DNA of 45,324 bases from Desulfobacterales bacterium (GCA_018432925.1 JAHDSC010000136.1:1-45324); one strand, 5' to 3'; positions 13,177 through 35,077 are shown, counted from the first letter of the stretch. Numbers and translations: made by a program. The notes: generated from the letters alone by a model not told the origin.

Positions 13177-16100
13177 ATGGTTGGTAAGATGAGGGCATTA
13201 GGTCTATGTCTCGGCGCGTCCACCGTATCGATCGTCCAGGTTGAAGCGGGAACCGGCACGCGAAACCGGGAAAAAACCGATACTTCCTTAAAACCACATG
13301 TGATCGAATATCAGCTCCATTCTCATGAAGGAGACCCCAAACAAACACTGATTTCCGCTCTCAAACAACTGAACCTTGATTCGTTCGACCGGATCGCCGC
13401 AACCGGTCGAAGGTTCCGCAGATTCGTGAATTTGACCTCCATACCGGAGCCCGAAGCGGTGGAATATGCCTACCGGTTTACAAAACCTTCGGGGGTCCTT
13501 TGCCCCGCCGTTGTGTCCGCGGGAGGTGAAACCTTCATGGTATATGTTTTAAATCGCTTCGGACAGATATCCAACGTATTGACGGGTAACAAATGCGCTT
13601 CCGGAACCGGCGAATTCTTTCTTCAGCAGCTTCGCCGGATGAACGTATCGCTTGAGGATGCGGCGCAGTGGGCCGCCGCGGAAAAACCTTATCACGTTTC
13701 CGGACGCTGCTCGGTTTTCTGCAAATCGGACTGCACCCATGCGACCAATAAGGGCGTTCCCAAATCGCAGGTGACCGCCGGCCTGTGCAAGATGATGGCG
13801 GACAAGATCCTGGAACTGCTGACAAATATCGATAAACGCGACATTATGATTACCGGCGGCACGGCCCTCAATCGAATGATGATTGAGTATCTTAACCGGA
13901 AAATTTCCGGAATTATCGTTCCCAGGGAAGCACCTTATTTCGAAGCACTCGGTGCCGCCCTCTGGGCCCTGGAGCATGACACCCTCCCGTTCCCGGGGCT
14001 ATCCGGCCTTCTGAGATCCGAACTCACATCTTTTGACACCCTTGCACCCCTGCGAAATTTCGAAGATATGGTGGATTTCAAAACCACCGCAATCGGCGAG
14101 ATCCGGGCCGGAGATACCTGCATACTCGGTCTGGACGTAGGTTCAACCACAACCAAGGCGGTGCTCCTCCGAAAAGACGACAACGCAATGGTCGCCTCCG
14201 TCTATTTACGCACGGACGGCGACCCGGTGGGAGCTTCCCGGAATTGTTATCGCAGCATTCTCGACCAGATTAAAACAAAGATCGATCCTTCCACCCTTTT
14301 GATAGAAGGACTGGGAGTCTGCGGATCCGGACGGCAGATCGCCGGTCTCCATGCCTTGACGGACGGCGTGATCAACGAAATCATTGCGCATGCTACCGCT
14401 GCCGTCCACTTTGACCCTCAGGTGGATACGATCTTCGAGATCGGAGGTCAGGACGCCAAGTACACGTACATCACAAACGGCGTGCCATCCGATTACGCAA
14501 TGAATGAAGCATGCTCGGCCGGGACAGGATCGTTTCTGGAAGAATCCGCGTATGAAACGCTGGGAGTTCAAATGGAAGACATCGCGGACATCGCGCTTAC
14601 CGGCGAACATCCTCCGAATTTCAACGACCAGTGCGCCGCCTTCATCTCCTCCGACATCAAAAACGCCATTCACGAAGGGGTTGATCATGAAGATATCGTC
14701 GCCGGTTTGGTCTATTCCATCTGCATGAACTATTCAAACCGGGTCAAGGGCAACCGCCCGGTCGGAGAAAAGGTGTTCATGCAGGGCGGAGTCTGTTACA
14801 ACCGGGCGGTTCCTCTTGCCATGGCCTCGCTGGTGGGCAAGCCGATCATCGTACCGCCGGAACCCGGACTGATGGGAGCTTTCGGTGTTGCACTGGCGGT
14901 TAAAAAACGAATCGAAACGGGATTGATGCTGAAAAACCGCTTTGACCTGGAGATTCTGGCGAAACGGGAAGTGAAATACGGGAATCCGTTTGTTTGCGGA
15001 GGCGGGAAAGAGAAGTGCGATCGGCGATGCGAAATAGCGGTCATCGAAATCGAAGGAAAAAAATACCCCTTTGGAGGAGCCTGCAACCGTTACTATAATC
15101 TGCGCCGCAGGATAAAATGCGATGTGAAAGCCCTGGATTTCGTCCGGGTCCGGCAGCAGCTGATATTTGAAAAATACGGCGCCAAGCCGCGGGAAAGAAA
15201 GGGAAAAAAACGCGGAGGAAAAATCGGTATGAACCGGAGCTTCCTTGTCAACACTTACTATCCGCTTTATTCCACGTTTTTCTCCGAGCTGGGATTTGAA
15301 ATCGTTGTGCCGGATTCTCCTTCTCAGGAAGGAATCGATCGGAGGGGAGCTGCTTTCTGTTACCCGATGGAATTGGCCCATGGATTTTTTTATTCGCTCC
15401 TTCGGATGGAGCATCCCCCGGAAATCCTGTTTCTTCCCCACTTCAAAGCGGTACCCGCTTCCAACGGATTCACCCGTTCGGAGGTTTGCCCGCTGGTCCA
15501 GGGCGAAACATATACCCTCCAAACCACATTCCGGCCGGAACTCAACGAACTGCGGAAAAAAGGAATGAAAATTCTTGCGCCCCTGATCGATCTCAAGGAC
15601 GGGCTGCCGTCTGCAAAGGGGCCGCTGGTCCGAACCGCCATGGATCTGGGAATCTCCAGGCGGGAAGCAGAGTCGGCTTTTCGCAACGCATTGTCCCGGC
15701 AGACGAACTGCCTCGCCGAAATGAAAGAGATCGGAAAAAAGGCGCTGAAAGTCCTGGAAGAGAATCCGGATCAAACCGCGGTGATCCTGTTTGCCCGCCC
15801 GTATAACGGATTCGTTGAAGAAGCGCACATGGGAATTCCCCACAAGCTCGCATCCCGGGGGATTCCGGTGATACCGCTGGATTTTCTCGAACTCGATGCG
15901 GAAAAAGCAAAACGCCACATGTACTGGGGGATGGGGCAGATGATGATGAAGGCCGGGCGAGTCGTCCGGAGACATCCCCAGTTGTTCGGGACATACATCA
16001 CCAATTTTTCCTGCGGGCCGGATTCTTTTATTCTCGGATATTTCAGGGATCTCATGGGTCGGAAACCATCCCTTACCCTGGAACTGGACAGCCATACGGC

Positions 16101-17559
16101 GGATGCCGGCCTGGAAACCCGCATCGAGGCTTTTCTGGATATCGTCGCGGCATACCGGCAGTTGGTTGCGGACAAAAAAATCGCGCAAAAGCGGGCGGAT
16201 TTTCTTCCCGCCCGCACGATTATGGAATCCGGATCTCTTCAGGTGATTACTTCATCCGGAAAAACCCTGCCGATGAAGGATTCACGCGTCACGCTTCTTT
16301 TGCCGTCGATGGGCCGGATCGCCTCCGAATCGCTGGCCGCCATTTTTCGCGGAAAAGGATTTCACGCGGTGGCTTATCCTCCCTCGGACGAAGCGGTCCT
16401 CAAATTGGGACGTGCAAACACCTCCTGCAAGGAGTGCCTTCCGCTGATACTGACCACCGGAACGCTGCTCAGCTACATCCGCGATCGAAAGCGCGAGGAG
16501 GAAATCCTCGTTTATTTCATGCCGACCACTTCGGGGCCGTGCCGCTTCGGCCAGTATTCGGTTTTCATGGAAGATCTCATGAAAAGGCTCGAAATACCCA
16601 ACGTGGCCTTTTTATCGTTGACATCGGAAAACGGCTACGGGGGATTGGGAGGGGATTTCAAGTCCAGGGCATGGTGGGGTGTGATCGTATCCGATGCATT
16701 GGAAGATATTCGATCCATGATACTGGCCAATGCCGTGAACACGGAGGCTGCGATGCACCTTTTCAATGAGGAATTGAAGCGGATCCTCCGGGAACTGGAA
16801 AAAGGGAATTACGCCGGTCTGGAAAAACAAATTGCCCGGACCGCCGAACGATTTCGCGGGATTGCAATGAAAGTTCCACCCGGCCGGGTGCCGACCATCT
16901 GCCTTGCGGGCGAAATTTTCGTTCGCCGGGATTCCCTGTCCCGCCAGTATCTGACCGAGCGGCTGGCGAAAGACGGATTCGCCGCGCTTTGTTCGCCGGT
17001 TGCCGAATGGATCCTGTATTCCGACTATATGTATGCCGCGGGGCTCAATGATGAGAAAATGTCACCGATGGAAAGGCTGAAGTTTATAATCAAAAAAAAT
17101 GTCATGAAGCGTTATGAAAAGCGCCTCAAATCCCTATTTTCCCGCTCCGGGCTGCTTCACGCGGAACCGCTTCGCATCCGATCCATCATTGAAACGGCCG
17201 GGCCTTATATTTCACCGAATCTGGGAGGGGAAGCCATCCTGACGGTCGGAAGCTCTCTCGGCGAAGTGGCCTCGCATGCCTGCGGGGTGATTGCCATCGG
17301 CCCGTTCGGATGCATGCCGAACCGCCTGTCGGAAGCGATTCTCAAGCAAACCATGAACCGGGAAGACAAGCTGGCAACGGATCCGAACAGCAGACGACTT
17401 CAAGCCACGCTTGCCGATATGGAAGATCTGCCGTTTCTTGCCATTGAAAGCGACGGTTCGCCCTTTCCCCAGCTGATCAATGCCAAGCTGGAAGCTTTCT
17501 GCCTTCGGGCGCAGCGGCTGCATGAAAAAATGCTCGGGGTGAACGGATCGCTCGGTTGA
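13177..17559 (+). CDS. Multidomain acyl-CoA dehydratase activase-related protein (BadF/HgdC family, two ATPase modules, DUF2229)
   Basis: A 1460-residue cytoplasmic Fe-S protein. Module 1 (about 1-285) is an ASKHA ATPase with a CASGTGEFF motif (Cys140) and a CSVFCKSDC cluster (Cys178, 182, 186). Module 2 (about 315-600) is a textbook HgdC/BcrA-type activase: LGLDVGSTTTKAVLL, FEIGGQDAKY, ACSAGTG (Cys446) and NDQCAAF (Cys486). The 40-residue Cys spacing resembles the pair that holds the dimer's [4Fe-4S] cluster in HgdC. DUF2229 and a dehydratase-like C-terminal part follow (GAAFCYPMELAHGF, TSCKECLPL, GPFGCMPN). Family members use ATP to push electrons into 2-hydroxyacyl-CoA dehydratases or benzoyl-CoA reductase; what this fused form drives is not known. 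The ribosome site AAGAGG lies about 10 bases before ATG 13177; ATG at codon 5 is an alternative. A SUF-like gene pair follows. Confidence 0.92.
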   Translation: MVGKMRALGLCLGASTVSIVQVEAGTGTRNREKTDTSLKPHVIEYQLHSHEGDPKQTLISALKQLNLDSFDRIAATGRRFRRFVNLTSIPEPEAVEYAYRFTKPSGVLCPAVVSAGGETFMVYVLNRFGQISNVLTGNKCASGTGEFFLQQLRRMNVSLEDAAQWAAAEKPYHVSGRCSVFCKSDCTHATNKGVPKSQVTAGLCKMMADKILELLTNIDKRDIMITGGTALNRMMIEYLNRKISGIIVPREAPYFEALGAALWALEHDTLPFPGLSGLLRSELTSFDTLAPLRNFEDMVDFKTTAIGEIRAGDTCILGLDVGSTTTKAVLLRKDDNAMVASVYLRTDGDPVGASRNCYRSILDQIKTKIDPSTLLIEGLGVCGSGRQIAGLHALTDGVINEIIAHATAAVHFDPQVDTIFEIGGQDAKYTYITNGVPSDYAMNEACSAGTGSFLEESAYETLGVQMEDIADIALTGEHPPNFNDQCAAFISSDIKNAIHEGVDHEDIVAGLVYSICMNYSNRVKGNRPVGEKVFMQGGVCYNRAVPLAMASLVGKPIIVPPEPGLMGAFGVALAVKKRIETGLMLKNRFDLEILAKREVKYGNPFVCGGGKEKCDRRCEIAVIEIEGKKYPFGGACNRYYNLRRRIKCDVKALDFVRVRQQLIFEKYGAKPRERKGKKRGGKIGMNRSFLVNTYYPLYSTFFSELGFEIVVPDSPSQEGIDRRGAAFCYPMELAHGFFYSLLRMEHPPEILFLPHFKAVPASNGFTRSEVCPLVQGETYTLQTTFRPELNELRKKGMKILAPLIDLKDGLPSAKGPLVRTAMDLGISRREAESAFRNALSRQTNCLAEMKEIGKKALKVLEENPDQTAVILFARPYNGFVEEAHMGIPHKLASRGIPVIPLDFLELDAEKAKRHMYWGMGQMMMKAGRVVRRHPQLFGTYITNFSCGPDSFILGYFRDLMGRKPSLTLELDSHTADAGLETRIEAFLDIVAAYRQLVADKKIAQKRADFLPARTIMESGSLQVITSSGKTLPMKDSRVTLLLPSMGRIASESLAAIFRGKGFHAVAYPPSDEAVLKLGRANTSCKECLPLILTTGTLLSYIRDRKREEEILVYFMPTTSGPCRFGQYSVFMEDLMKRLEIPNVAFLSLTSENGYGGLGGDFKSRAWWGVIVSDALEDIRSMILANAVNTEAAMHLFNEELKRILRELEKGNYAGLEKQIARTAERFRGIAMKVPPGRVPTICLAGEIFVRRDSLSRQYLTERLAKDGFAALCSPVAEWILYSDYMYAAGLNDEKMSPMERLKFIIKKNVMKRYEKRLKSLFSRSGLLHAEPLRIRSIIETAGPYISPNLGGEAILTVGSSLGEVASHACGVIAIGPFGCMPNRLSEAILKQTMNREDKLATDPNSRRLQATLADMEDLPFLAIESDGSPFPQLINAKLEAFCLRAQRLHEKMLGVNGSLG

Positions 17560-30170: not shown

Positions 30171-31919
30171 ATGCAAAGTACTATGAAACCTTTTCTAACG
30201 ATTATGATGGTTTTACTCGTGGCGGCATTCTTCACCACCCCAGCGCTGGCCGGCCACGGCGCCAAAAGCGCTTCGCATGCCGCCGTGATTGAAGGCGGAG
30301 ACACCATCAACATTTCCGGCATCGTCAGCGACAGTCACGGAGAGCCGGTCAATGAAGCGCGGGTGCTGATATCGGTCAACGGCAAGGAGCTCGACGAACA
30401 GCATATGGCGCATTCCGGCAAATACGTGTCGACCTTCATGATGGAAAAAGACCAGATTCAGACCGCCAGGATCCACATCGAAGGCCGAAAGGCCAGTTTC
30501 AAAACGGAGGTTCTTGAATTTTCCGGCTCCGATATGGCGCAGAGGGGAGACCACTTTTACATGCAGGAAAACATCACGATGCAACGGGTGCTGGGACCGG
30601 CCTTCTGGATCTCCACCCTGGTCTTTGTCATCGCCTATGCCCTCATTTCCTTTGAACTGCTGCACCGGACCATCGCGGCCATGCTGGGCGCCGCGCTGAT
30701 GATGGCCATTTCCTACACCATCGGAACCCTCAACCCGGAATATCGCATCGTTTCATTCGAATCCGCCATCTTCTCCATCGACATGAACGTGATCTTTCTT
30801 CTCATGGGGATGATGATCATCGTCGGGATCCTGAAAAACACCGGCGTATTCCAGTGGTGCGCCTATATTTCCTACAAGCTGGCCAAGGGAAAGGTCTTCG
30901 TTCTCGCCACCATTCTCATGATCTTTACGGCGGTATCCTCCGCCTTCCTGGACAACGTGACCACCATGCTCCTTCTGACCGGAGTGGCCATCGAAATCTG
31001 CATCTCTCTTTCCATCAACCCGCTGTACCTGCTGATCCCGCTGGTCCTTGCCTCCAATATCGGCGGCACGGCGACGCTGATCGGCGATCCGCCCAATATC
31101 ATGATCGGCTCCTACGCGGGCCTCACCTTCATGGACTTCGTGGTCGCCCTCATCGAGACCGTCATCATATCCATGGTCGCCCTGATCATCATGAGCAAGT
31201 TTGTATGGGGAAAGGACTACGCGGCGGCAAAGGTTGAAAATGTCACCGAATATGTAAAGGTACTGAAGGAAAAATACAAGATCACCGACCCCACGCTCCT
31301 GACCTACGGAATGGTTGTCCTGGGATTCGTGGTTATGCTGTTCCTCAGCCACGGTTACTGGCACATGGAGGTCAGCATCGCCGCGCTGCTGGGAGCCTCG
31401 GTTCTTTTCACCATCGCGCTGGTGACCGAAAAAGTGGAGCTGCTGGAGTTGATCGAAAAGGACATCGAATGGCCGACCCTGATGTTCTTCATCTTCCTTT
31501 TCATCCTTGTCGGAGCCGTCGAATCATCCGGCCTGCTGGCCCTGATCGCCGACTGGATTCTGGATCTTTCCGGCGGCAACTTCTATGTCGCGATGGCCCT
31601 GATCCTGTGGGTGTCGGCCATCATGTCCGCGTTTGTGGACAACATTCCGTTTACCGCCACCATGCTCCCGATCGTCGCCTATCTCAGCACCGTCATACCG
31701 GGCTCTGAAAACACCCTGTGGTGGGCGCTGGCGCTCGGCGCCTGCTTCGGCGGCAACGGCACGATGATCGGCGCCTCGGCCAACGTCGTGACCATGGGGA
31801 TCGCGGAATCCAAGGGATATAAGATCAGTTTCATCGGATTCATGAAAACGGCCTTCCCCTACATGATCATCAGCGTTGCGATCGCCCATGCCTGGCTGGT
31901 TATCTTTCGGCCGGCATAG
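30171..31919 (+). CDS. Ion-transporter-superfamily permease (ArsB/NhaD/SLC13-like), copy 1, with exported N-terminal domain
   Basis: A 582-residue protein. A signal peptide (hydrophobic 7-25, TTPALAGHG) comes first. Next is an exported domain of about 110 residues (INISGIVSDSHGEPVNEARVL) like carboxypeptidase-regulatory or Ig-like folds. Then come some 11-12 membrane segments from about residue 150. The two inverted-repeat cores are visible: DNVTTMLLLTG with NIGGTATLIGDPPNIMIG, and DNIPFTATMLPIV with GGNGTMIGASANVV. These are typical of NhaD/ArsB/P-protein relatives, which move Na+/H+, oxyanions or dicarboxylates. Substrate unknown; SLC13-type carriers have been proposed as sulfate importers in sulfate reducers, but nothing here proves that. 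A strong terminator follows. About 92 percent identical to copy 2. Confidence 0.9.
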   Translation: MQSTMKPFLTIMMVLLVAAFFTTPALAGHGAKSASHAAVIEGGDTINISGIVSDSHGEPVNEARVLISVNGKELDEQHMAHSGKYVSTFMMEKDQIQTARIHIEGRKASFKTEVLEFSGSDMAQRGDHFYMQENITMQRVLGPAFWISTLVFVIAYALISFELLHRTIAAMLGAALMMAISYTIGTLNPEYRIVSFESAIFSIDMNVIFLLMGMMIIVGILKNTGVFQWCAYISYKLAKGKVFVLATILMIFTAVSSAFLDNVTTMLLLTGVAIEICISLSINPLYLLIPLVLASNIGGTATLIGDPPNIMIGSYAGLTFMDFVVALIETVIISMVALIIMSKFVWGKDYAAAKVENVTEYVKVLKEKYKITDPTLLTYGMVVLGFVVMLFLSHGYWHMEVSIAALLGASVLFTIALVTEKVELLELIEKDIEWPTLMFFIFLFILVGAVESSGLLALIADWILDLSGGNFYVAMALILWVSAIMSAFVDNIPFTATMLPIVAYLSTVIPGSENTLWWALALGACFGGNGTMIGASANVVTMGIAESKGYKISFIGFMKTAFPYMIISVAIAHAWLVIFRPA

Positions 31920-31967
31920 GAAATGTAACCGGATTTTGATCTGAAACCCTTCTAAAAAACATGGAAA

Positions 31968-31998
31968 GCCCCGCCCGGTAAACCGGGCGGGGCTTTTT
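31968..31998 (+). terminator. Rho-independent terminator after permease 1
   Basis: An 11-bp perfect GC stem, GCCCCGCCCGG (31968-31978) with CCGGGCGGGGC (31983-31993), loop of four, followed by five T (31994-31998). Confidence 0.9.
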
Positions 31999-32012
31999 CC
32001 TTCAAAGGCGTT

Positions 32013-32459
32013 ATGGACTCACAGCTTTTCATTATCAAATCCCTTTATGTGCAGGACGGGATCATGCTTGCCGCTCTGGCGGGACTGATCTTTCTGCTGG
32101 TACGATCGATCACCCGGAAAAAAATCAAAACCACGATCGCGGTCCTCATCTGGATCGGCATTGTCCTGTGGTTTTTCAACTCCTTCTTCGGTTTCAGCAC
32201 CGTTCGGGTCGGTCCGGAAGGCATCGGGCTGAACTACGGCATCCTTTCCCCCCGGAATGCGGTGCTTCCGATAGATTCCGAATGGAAAATCGAAAACTAT
32301 CTTTCCGGAATTCGAAGAAACAAAAGACTTTTCTACATCCGGATCGACAGCCACCAGAGCATGCGGTTGAGCGGTCGTCAGGCACAGATTCTCGAAGAGA
32401 TCGGGGCTGCCATCGATTCGATGAAAGGCCTGAAACCCCGTGTCCGGGAAAGCTCCTGA
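32013..32459 (+). CDS. Small two-span membrane protein, unknown
   Basis: A 148-residue protein with two membrane segments (about 15-33 and 39-57) followed by a ~90-residue soluble tail (VRVGPEGIGLNYGILSPRNA, then FYIRIDSHQSMRLSG). The tail looks like the bacterial PH-like domains that follow membrane hairpins, but this is only a resemblance. AAAGG lies five bases before the ATG. It starts just 14 bases behind the permease 1 terminator, so it depends on read-through or its own unseen promoter. It sits exactly between the two permease copies. Confidence 0.75.
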   Translation: MDSQLFIIKSLYVQDGIMLAALAGLIFLLVRSITRKKIKTTIAVLIWIGIVLWFFNSFFGFSTVRVGPEGIGLNYGILSPRNAVLPIDSEWKIENYLSGIRRNKRLFYIRIDSHQSMRLSGRQAQILEEIGAAIDSMKGLKPRVRESS

Positions 32460-32465
32460 AATCAT

Positions 32466-32502
32466 CCCCGGTTTTTCGTTCGACCGGGGCTTGATGATTT
32501 TT
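32466..32502 (+). terminator. Probable terminator after the small membrane protein
   Basis: CCCCGGT (32466-32472) pairs with ACCGGGG (32483-32489) around a 10-base loop; the tail CTTGATGATTTTT is only partly T-rich. Confidence 0.5.
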
Positions 32503-32528
32503 CCCATGAAGCCTCCGCCATGACCCGG

Positions 32529-32557
32529 CCGGCTCGATCTCCCGGCGGTCGAGCCGG
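32529..32557. repeat. Perfect 9-bp inverted repeat
   Basis: CCGGCTCGA (32529-32537) and TCGAGCCGG (32549-32557) around 11 bases. No T-tract follows. It lies between the preceding terminator and the consensus promoter; role unknown. Confidence 0.5.
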
Positions 32558-32655
32558 GGAATGAATTCCAAAACCGGTTAAAAACCCTTTCCATCGAAGA
32601 TTTCCCCGTCCCGCAATCGCAGCGCTTCAATTTTTTTCCGGATCGTAAAATTTAT

Positions 32656-32684
32656 TTGACATCATACCATGAGAAAAATATAAT
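32656..32684 (+). promoter_or_regulatory. Perfect-consensus sigma70 promoter
   Basis: TTGACA (32656-32661), 17 bases, TATAAT (32679-32684): both hexamers match the consensus fully with ideal spacing. Start predicted near 32691. The next convincing gene downstream is permease 2 at 33263, about 570 bases away. Confidence 0.85.
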
Positions 32685-33262
32685 GCGCGGCGAATTTGAA
32701 AGGTTTTCGAGCGGATTGGAATCACGGATGGAAAAACGTCCCGCCCGAAAAAATCCGAGGTTTTTAAAATTTGCCGGCAAGGCATTCGATTTTTGTATTC
32801 GGTCTTACTGACAAACGCAGGAAGCGTGTCCATCAGGCCAAAGGATATGAAAATGACAGGCATGCGGTGTAAAACTACAGGTGTTAAGCTGCTTTATGTC
32901 AGCTCGGTAACGCGCTGCAATTTTCTGCAGTTCAAGCTTCTCTTTTTAAATTCCTATTCATACCTTCGTCACTTTTTTCCACACACCTTGAATCTGGACT
33001 CCAGTTAGTCATCCCATCTTCCGTTGTATTGAAGTTTATCGAATCCTGAAATAAAAGGGATCCGTTCGACCTAATGCGGAGTGCCCGCGCAAAGGCATTT
33101 CGTATGGATCACTGTATCATCGTGTTTGCATCGGTCGGTTTCGGCAATGCAGGATTCCGCCGAAGCGCCGGCCTGAAAAAGGCACAACCGGATAGGCGAT
33201 CGATTTCAACGTTTGTACACTCGAAGTATTTAAAAAAAACATCAAATTCAGGAGGAATGGCC

Positions 33263-35008
33263 ATGAGGCGTTTTTCATATGCATTGTTTCTTATCACGGG
33301 ATTATTCATTCTGTTTTTATCCGCCGGACCGGTGCTGGCCAGCCACGGAGGCAAAAGCGCCTCGCAGGCGGTCGCGATTGAAGGCGGGGACACCATCAAC
33401 ATTTCCGGCATCATCAGCGACAACCACGGAGAACCGGTCAATGAAGCCCGGGTGCTGATATCGATCAACGGCAAGGAGATCGACGAACAGCACACGGCCC
33501 ACTCCGGCAAATACGTGTCGACCTTCATGATGGAAAAAGACCAGGTTCAGACCGCCAGGATCCACATCGAAGGCCGAAAGGCCAGTTTCAAAACGCAGGT
33601 TCTTGAATTCACGGGCTCCGATCTGGCGCAAAAGGGAGATCACTATTACATGCAGGAAAACATGACCCTGCAGCGGACGCTGGGACCGGCCTTCTGGATT
33701 TCCACCCTTGTTTTTGTCATCGCCTACGCCCTCATCTCCTTTGAACTGCTGCACCGGACCATCGCGGCCATGCTGGGCGCCGCGCTGATGCTGGCCATTT
33801 CCTACACCATCGGAACCCTCAACCCGGAATACCGAATTTTTTCCTTTGAATCAGCCATTTCATCCATCGACATGAACGTGGTCTTTCTGCTCATGGGGAT
33901 GATGATCATTGTCGGGATCCTGAAAAACACCGGCGTATTCCAGTGGTGCGCCTATATTTCCTACAAGCTGGCCAAGGGAAAGGTCTTCGTTCTGTCCGTC
34001 ATTCTCATGATCTTTACGGCGGTAACCTCCGCCTTCCTGGACAACGTGACCACCATGCTCCTTCTGACCGGCGTGGCCATCGAGATCTGCATCTCTCTTT
34101 CCATCAACCCGCTGTACCTGCTGATCCCGCTGGTCCTGGCCTCCAACATCGGCGGCACGGCGACGCTGATCGGCGATCCGCCCAATATCATGATCGGCTC
34201 CTACGTGGGCCTCACCTTCATGGACTTCGTGGTGGCACTGGTCTGGGTGTGCATTGTTTCCATGATCGCCCTGTTTCTAACGACCAAGGTTGTATGGGGA
34301 AAGGACTATGCCGCGGCAAAGGTCGATAATGTCACCGAGTACGTAAAGGTTCTGAAGGAAAAATACAAGATCACCGATCCCACGCTTCTTACTTACGGCA
34401 TGGTTGTCCTGGGGTTCGTGGTCATGCTGTTCCTCAGCCACGGCTACTGGCACATGGAGGTCAGCATCGCCGCGCTGCTGGGTGCTTCGGTTTTTTTCAC
34501 CATCGCGCTGGTGACCGAAAAAGTGGAGCTGCTGGAGTTGATCGAAAAGGACATCGAATGGCCCACCCTGATGTTCTTCATCTTCCTTTTCATCATCGTC
34601 GGGGCTGTTGAATCGACCGGCCTGCTGGCCTTGATCGCCGACTGGATCCTGAACCTTTCCGGCGGCAACTTCTACATCGCGATGGCTCTGATCCTGTGGG
34701 TGTCGGCCATCATGTCGGCGTTTGTGGACAACATTCCGTTTACCGCCACCATGCTCCCGATCGTCGCCTTTCTCAGCGCCGAAATACCGGGCTCTGAAAA
34801 TACCCTGTGGTGGGCGCTGGCGCTCGGCGCCTGTTTCGGCGGCAACGGCACGATGATCGGCGCATCGGCCAACGTGGTGACCATGGGTATCGCGGAATCC
34901 AAGGGATATAAGATCAGTTTTATCGGGTTCATGAAAACGGCCTTCCCCTACATGATCATCAGCGTGGCGATCGCCCATGTCTGGCTGGTTATCGTTCGGC
35001 CGGCCTAA
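33263..35008 (+). CDS. Ion-transporter-superfamily permease (ArsB/NhaD/SLC13-like), copy 2, with exported N-terminal domain
   Basis: A 581-residue paralogue of copy 1. The signal peptide is different (RRFSYALFLITGLFILFLSAG, ending VLASHG), but from EGGDTINISGI onward about 44 of 542 residues differ by hand count, roughly 92 percent identity. Eleven of those differences cluster in one membrane segment (about residues 319-338 here, VWVCIVSMIALFLTTKVV against IETVIISMVALIIMSKFV in copy 1). Both transport cores (DNVTTMLLL, NIGGTATLIGDPPN, DNIPFTATML) are unchanged. AGGAGG lies seven bases before ATG 33263; an ATG two codons earlier is too close to it. The predicted transcript starts about 570 bases upstream, and a strong terminator follows. 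Confidence 0.9.
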   Translation: MRRFSYALFLITGLFILFLSAGPVLASHGGKSASQAVAIEGGDTINISGIISDNHGEPVNEARVLISINGKEIDEQHTAHSGKYVSTFMMEKDQVQTARIHIEGRKASFKTQVLEFTGSDLAQKGDHYYMQENMTLQRTLGPAFWISTLVFVIAYALISFELLHRTIAAMLGAALMLAISYTIGTLNPEYRIFSFESAISSIDMNVVFLLMGMMIIVGILKNTGVFQWCAYISYKLAKGKVFVLSVILMIFTAVTSAFLDNVTTMLLLTGVAIEICISLSINPLYLLIPLVLASNIGGTATLIGDPPNIMIGSYVGLTFMDFVVALVWVCIVSMIALFLTTKVVWGKDYAAAKVDNVTEYVKVLKEKYKITDPTLLTYGMVVLGFVVMLFLSHGYWHMEVSIAALLGASVFFTIALVTEKVELLELIEKDIEWPTLMFFIFLFIIVGAVESTGLLALIADWILNLSGGNFYIAMALILWVSAIMSAFVDNIPFTATMLPIVAFLSAEIPGSENTLWWALALGACFGGNGTMIGASANVVTMGIAESKGYKISFIGFMKTAFPYMIISVAIAHVWLVIVRPA

Positions 35009-35042: not shown

Positions 35043-35077
35043 AAACGTCCCGTCCGGGAATCCGGACGGGACGTTTT
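35043..35077. terminator. Bidirectional Rho-independent terminator between permease 2 and clpB
   Basis: A 13-bp perfect stem, ACGTCCCGTCCGG (35045-35057) with CCGGACGGGACGT (35062-35074), loop GAAT, flanked by A-rich left and T-rich right ends. It lies between two convergent genes and can serve both. Confidence 0.85.

Follow-up and report, generated by a model that had tools for sequence, protein, structure and literature searches.

A recent tandem pair of ArsB-type permeases with an exported Ig-like domain: probably two versions of one transporter

The 45,324-nucleotide stretch of DNA analysed here (the window), from a Desulfobacterales bacterium (GCA_018432925.1 JAHDSC010000136.1:1-45324), carries on its + strand, in this order, a permease gene (copy 1, positions 30171–31919, 582 aa), a small gene referred to below as the partner gene (32013–32459, 148 aa) and a second permease gene (copy 2, 33263–35008). 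The two permeases are probably variants of a single transporter; their leaders differ, and an outer helix, transmembrane helix 5 (TM5), has changed rapidly. We consider it fairly probable, taking the explanation as a whole, that they are recent duplicates that have the same substrate pocket and have diverged in their control and in the contacts made by TM5. An earlier note on this DNA had proposed that the pair arose by duplication with focused divergence, or with conversion elsewhere, and might represent two carriers with different specificity or regulation; from the sequence comparisons described below, regulatory or dosage divergence appears to be a better reading than a change of specificity.

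The pair was compared to locus L039, whose genome belongs to the same family; the gene order there is as in the window, hemA-ccsA-...-permease-partner-clpB, but with a single permease. Locus L071 likewise has one permease at the corresponding position. Silent codon differences amount to 15% between copy 1 and copy 2, compared to 54–55% between either copy and L039, and the copies are sisters in the tree (Shimodaira-Hasegawa-like approximate likelihood ratio test, SH-aLRT, 99). On this evidence the duplication is local and recent, as the earlier note had supposed. The 5' regions of the two genes are unrelated, again as had been noticed: 21 of 27 signal-peptide residues differ, and the upstream DNA and signal peptide of copy 1 (residues 1–27, 30171–30251) match those of L039 (65% over 407 bases), whereas those of copy 2 (signal peptide, 33263–33340) do not. 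For the copy 2 leader, no homologue was found in copy 1, in L039 or in the rest of the genome. Copy 2 most likely starts at the ATG at 33263, 7 nt after an AGGAGGA sequence, the other ATG being at 33257. A sigma-70-type promoter-like site (TTGACA-17-TATAAT, 32656–32684, + strand), which is a consensus match only (12 of 12 positions), lies 3' of the partner gene, ∼580 bases upstream of copy 2 and separated from it by ∼570 bases of leader. The region upstream of copy 2 does not appear to contain a structured leader RNA, as its fold was no better than those of shuffled sequences (z −0.31), and Rfam gave nothing above threshold, the weak matches lying around the terminator hairpin. A terminator-like, G+C-rich 14-bp hairpin is located 3' of copy 1 (31965–31996); it was listed on the − strand, and the + strand also ends with CTTTTT. 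The hairpin 3' of copy 2 (35044–35075) and a few bases beyond it resemble the region 3' of copy 1, a weak hint that part of the partner gene was included in the duplicated unit. The order of events would be that a permease-partner layout such as that of L039 became permease-partner-permease, copy 2 having arisen without the original 5' end, or having since lost it, and carrying instead another signal peptide and a leader of its own. Copy 1 is the ancestral-like, conserved copy.

The two genes are 89.6% identical at the nucleotide level over 582 codons, and 49 of the 555 residues of the mature protein differ. Exact alignment gives 44 differences over 542 residues (positions 41–582), equal to the hand count of the earlier note, and the reported bunching of 11 of them after the GDPPN motif is also found, within 17 residues (328–344 in copy 1 numbering; 31152–31202 in copy 1 and 34241–34291 in copy 2). 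The membrane part holds 32 inter-copy differences, including these 11. The differences are not uniformly spread, as the scan statistic under uniform placement gives p<5e-5; this control is nevertheless too lenient, because TM5 is variable across the whole family. Segment 328–344 (mean mismatch weight of 0.53, versus 0.20 outside residues 316–345) belongs to the least conserved membrane helix, and its sites have a 2.7-fold rate relative to the remainder. When the family site rates were used as weights, 3.1 differences were expected in the segment versus 11 observed (p<5e-5), so that the divergence is indeed focused. The segment accounts for a 0.34 share of the differences between the copies, the highest value in a set of 167 family pairs that differ at 15–60 positions (next value 0.26, mean 0.12), and comparison with 21 pooled sister pairs (74 of 609 differences in the segment) gave p=0.0014 in Fisher's test. 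In other tandem or neighbouring pairs, the share was 0.19 (genome G068), 0.14 (genome G276) and 0.14 (the tandem pair of locus L044). The concentration of differences in TM5 is real, but it exaggerates a tendency of the family.

The ratio of nonsynonymous to synonymous divergence (dN/dS) is 0.56 for residues 316–345 and 0.86 for residues 328–344, compared to 0.17 in the membrane part before this region and 0.08 after it. Within the segment the nonsynonymous excess is strong (p=4e-8), whereas for synonymous changes no significant excess is seen (p=0.096); inspection of the codon list by eye revealed no compensating frameshift. Polarisation of the changes with L039 as outgroup showed that both copies have moved: copy 1 acquired W329E, V330T and C331V in three adjacent codons, and copy 2 changed residues 328, 339, 340, 342 and 344. 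Over the mature protein, private amino-acid changes are more numerous in copy 2 (27) than in copy 1 (13; chi-square 4.9), while both copies are at equal nucleotide distance from L039.

Both genes would encode near-identical inner-membrane secondary transporters of the ArsB/DASS (Ion Transporter superfamily) fold. The AlphaFold2 (AF2) model of copy 1, computed with 84 family sequences, has a predicted local distance difference test score (pLDDT) of 88.7 and a predicted template modelling score (pTM) of 0.82; it comprises a beta domain (residues 44–132) followed by membrane helices with two hairpins (HP1 and HP2), and the order in each copy would be signal peptide, periplasmic immunoglobulin (Ig)-like domain and ten-helix membrane part. 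The best structural match is ArsB of Leptospirillum ferriphilum (LfArsB; PDB 10tp), with a Foldseek template modelling score of 0.84 by target length and a VIA Z-score of 45.2 over 420 residues of the membrane fold at 2.6 Å. Inverted repeats, two hairpins and two broken helices, the hallmarks of the superfamily fold, are present in the model, which also matches NaS1, NaDC3 and VcINDY; the predicted fold of both copies is of the ArsB/DASS elevator transporter type. By comparison with ArsB and VcINDY, HP1-TM4-TM5-HP2-TM9-TM10 would move as an elevator against a fixed scaffold.

The variable segment lies within TM5 (residues 320–352). In DASS carriers, the transport domain that moves includes the equivalent helix (their TM6), and in ArsB the substrate As(OH)3 is bound by the tips of HP1 and HP2 and by loops L1 and L2, not by TM5 (PMC13381914). 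By analogy, TM5 is predicted to be part of the moving domain and outside the substrate site. Over the HP1 tip, L1 (SNIGG...GDPPN, in which GDPPN, residues 305–309, 31083–31097 in copy 1, is invariant across the family), the HP2 tip and L2, 1 of 76 residues differs between the copies, the conservative S256T. With next to no difference in any of the four substrate-site motifs, different specificity is unlikely, and the same solute is most likely for both transporters because they have the same pocket; the copies would then differ in their expression and in their membrane or partner contacts. The family conservation of TM5 shows a helical (entropy) moment (p=0.014); residue 329 deviates by 5 degrees from the direction of the variable face, and residues 320, 327, 331 and 338 are on the conserved side. 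The changed part of TM5 would be mostly on the variable side and probably faces lipid or the partner. The earlier note would have given up its view had the segment faced lipid, remote from the substrate path; on this point the outcome is mixed, as E329 is central on the variable face but C331V and S342T are on the conserved one.

We asked whether other explanations account for these data. The view favoured by the earlier note, that TM5 divergence alters the solute of each copy, draws on the concentration of the nonsynonymous excess in one helix, on the charged E329 present in copy 1 only and on the location of TM5 within the transport domain in this fold; it is nonetheless quite improbable, as the substrate-site motifs are practically identical, ArsB holds its substrate through HP1, L1, HP2 and L2, and TM5 is variable in the family even among close relatives. 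We regard as unlikely, too, an older duplication in which gene conversion homogenised the body of the genes but bypassed the signal peptide and TM5. Such a history would fit leaders that are unrelated next to a remainder ∼90% identical, silent differences that are mildly patchy (p=0.017) and a synonymous divergence (dS) of ∼0.5 in the segment versus 0.23 on average. However, the silent excess of the segment is not significant, as described above, dS is as high in codons 181–210 and 346–405 with little or no amino-acid change, both copies hold their own derived segment residues relative to L039, and no donor for either variable segment was found elsewhere in the genome. The conversion elsewhere that had been suggested is thus possible but not needed.

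A further alternative is that copy 2 is a drifting spare under relaxed constraint, the least constrained helix showing the most change. The 27 versus 13 private changes at equal nucleotide distance and the 2.7-fold site rate of the segment are in its favour, and we hold it to be possible, albeit rather doubtful: the rate-weighted expectation (3.1) falls well short of the observed 11, copy 1 itself altered its three adjacent TM5 codons, 7 of 9 bases being unlike copy 2, and the overall dN/dS values (0.17 for the membrane part and 0.29 for the Ig-like domain) indicate that both copies are under purifying selection. Two observations weigh against the reading of equivalent transporters under divergent control. 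Copy 2 has changed at positions that no relative, or almost none, has altered (Y504F, L412F and V508E), and because of these departures copy 2 may have a changed rate or have partially lost its function. In addition, E329 of copy 1 is the sole acidic residue at positions 328–341 among 82 sequences, and an acidic residue at that depth of TM5 is odd if the face is merely lipid-exposed.

What solute the two copies would share was considered from the hairpin tips and from known systems. The Asp-Asn pairs at the tips are invariant (D261-N262 and D490-N491). At these positions, the Ser-Asn-Thr motifs of DASS/SLC13 carriers (VcINDY, NaCT, NaS1), with which the permeases share the fold and the layout of the elevator domain, are both replaced by D261-N262-V263 and D490-N491-I492. 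The permeases resemble ArsB in having a periplasmic N-terminus (both termini of ArsB are periplasmic), two hairpins and two broken helices, and their N262 and N491 are the counterparts of Asn111 and Asn337 in the metalloid site of ArsB. However, identity to ArsB is 19%, the H+-coupling Asp112 aligns to V263, Asp261 and Asp490 are extra, and an Ig-like domain is fused in front. As Asp-Asn pairs replace the DASS Ser-Asn-Thr motifs and Asp residues in the hairpins of the NhaB antiporter are essential (PMC9408914), exchange of an ion or neutral solute with H+ or Na+ seems somewhat more likely, with low confidence, than sulfate or dicarboxylate uptake. A survey of sulfate transporters in sulfate reducers makes no mention of CitMHS, ArsB or NhaD.

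Pfam CitMHS (PF03600) matches over the full profile (1–336) with 260.1 bits for copy 1 and 262.2 bits for copy 2, above the cut-off of 31.9. For all functional NCBIfam models, both copies score well short of the cut-off: 66–91 bits for three ArsB models (cut-offs 415–760), 79.1 and 80.7 bits for the DASS model TIGR00785 (cut-off 198.6) and, for the NhaD model NF038006 (cut-off 80), 34.9 bits for copy 1, copy 2 not being listed. The best NCBIfam match is to MamN, a magnetosome transporter (NF040989), over ∼400 residues with 166 and 170 bits; the cut-off of 500 is missed, however, and the model covers the permease part only (residues 149–545).

The Ig-like domain (30300–30566 in copy 1, 33389–33655 in copy 2 by alignment) was correctly recognised in the earlier note: the AF2 model is a beta-sandwich, predicted periplasmic, VIA aligns this domain with SlaB and with the transthyretin-like domain of carboxypeptidase D at Z-scores of 10–12, and Pfam Big_1 and carboxypeptidase-regulatory (CarboxypepD_reg) matches are found below the cut-off. 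The same note held the domain to be not usual for ArsB/NhaD carriers, which is right for the characterised proteins but not for the permease's own family, in which it is a standing architecture common to ∼80 full-length relatives, mainly from Desulfobacterota-type genomes and Nitrospirota. Because of this distribution, the domain is a family trait and was not gained by the duplicates. The OCA2 (pink-eyed dilution) protein has a comparable layout, with an extracytoplasmic beta-rich domain just before the first helix of a CitMHS-type Ion Transporter superfamily permease (PMC10372470); this likeness is drawn from its description, and OCA2 differs in being eukaryotic and organellar and in having a GOLD-like domain, whereas the domain described here matches Big_1 and carboxypeptidase-regulatory-like domains. 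Literature searches found no published account of the Ig-fused permease or of its gene neighbours.

In a second large clade, the permease has as its neighbours a universal stress protein (Usp), TauE/SafE proteins and a further CitMHS permease, which bears TrkA-C domains. Six loci of this clade (L085, L095, L096, L098, L108 and L109) share a conserved cluster of permease, Usp, TauE/SafE and Alph_Pro_TM (PF09608) genes, and several of them also have the further, TrkA-C-bearing CitMHS permease. Separate duplications within the family occur at L160 and L161 (genomes G068 and G276), where a unit of permease, universal stress protein and probable sensor protein is repeated. Locus L086 is on a contig binned as Candidatus Heimdallarchaeota; its permease is sister to those of the Thermodesulfobacteriota loci L103 and L105, and the contig is probably misbinned.

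The partner gene, present as one copy in the genome and common to the two permeases, encodes a protein without any Pfam match over the cut-off. Its AF2 model (pLDDT 88) has two helices, then strands and a C-terminal helix in a PH-like order; VIA gives Z-scores of 7–8 to PH/PTB domains, and Foldseek only weak PH-type matches (E above 0.07). Beyond the window, 31 of the loci fetched have a homologue next to the permease, lying upstream of it and in divergent orientation in almost every case. Among 389 sampled genomes of the class, the partner gene was found in 19, and 18 of these 19 also have the permease (counted at E<1e-90). The partner is a conserved, previously undescribed protein with two predicted TM helices and a putative PH-like domain that accompanies the permease almost always in one clade. 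It may be a stable accessory subunit, the changed outer face of TM5 tuning the contact of each copy with it (or of the two copies with each other, as a heterodimer), but we judge this a long shot; if true, one partner would be served by two transporters with different regulation. Elsewhere in the window, positions 13177–17559 encode a 1460-aa protein of the CoA-enzyme activase type, in which BcrAD_BadFG and DUF2229 domains are found.

The permeases represent an undescribed and widely kept family in which an ArsB-type elevator transporter would carry an exported Ig-like domain, in an arrangement reminiscent of human OCA2, and one clade of this family has a small unannotated companion protein that is seldom present without the permease. 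Within it, the duplicate pair constitutes a natural swap experiment, in which the predicted pocket is unchanged, one helix is altered and the leader is different.

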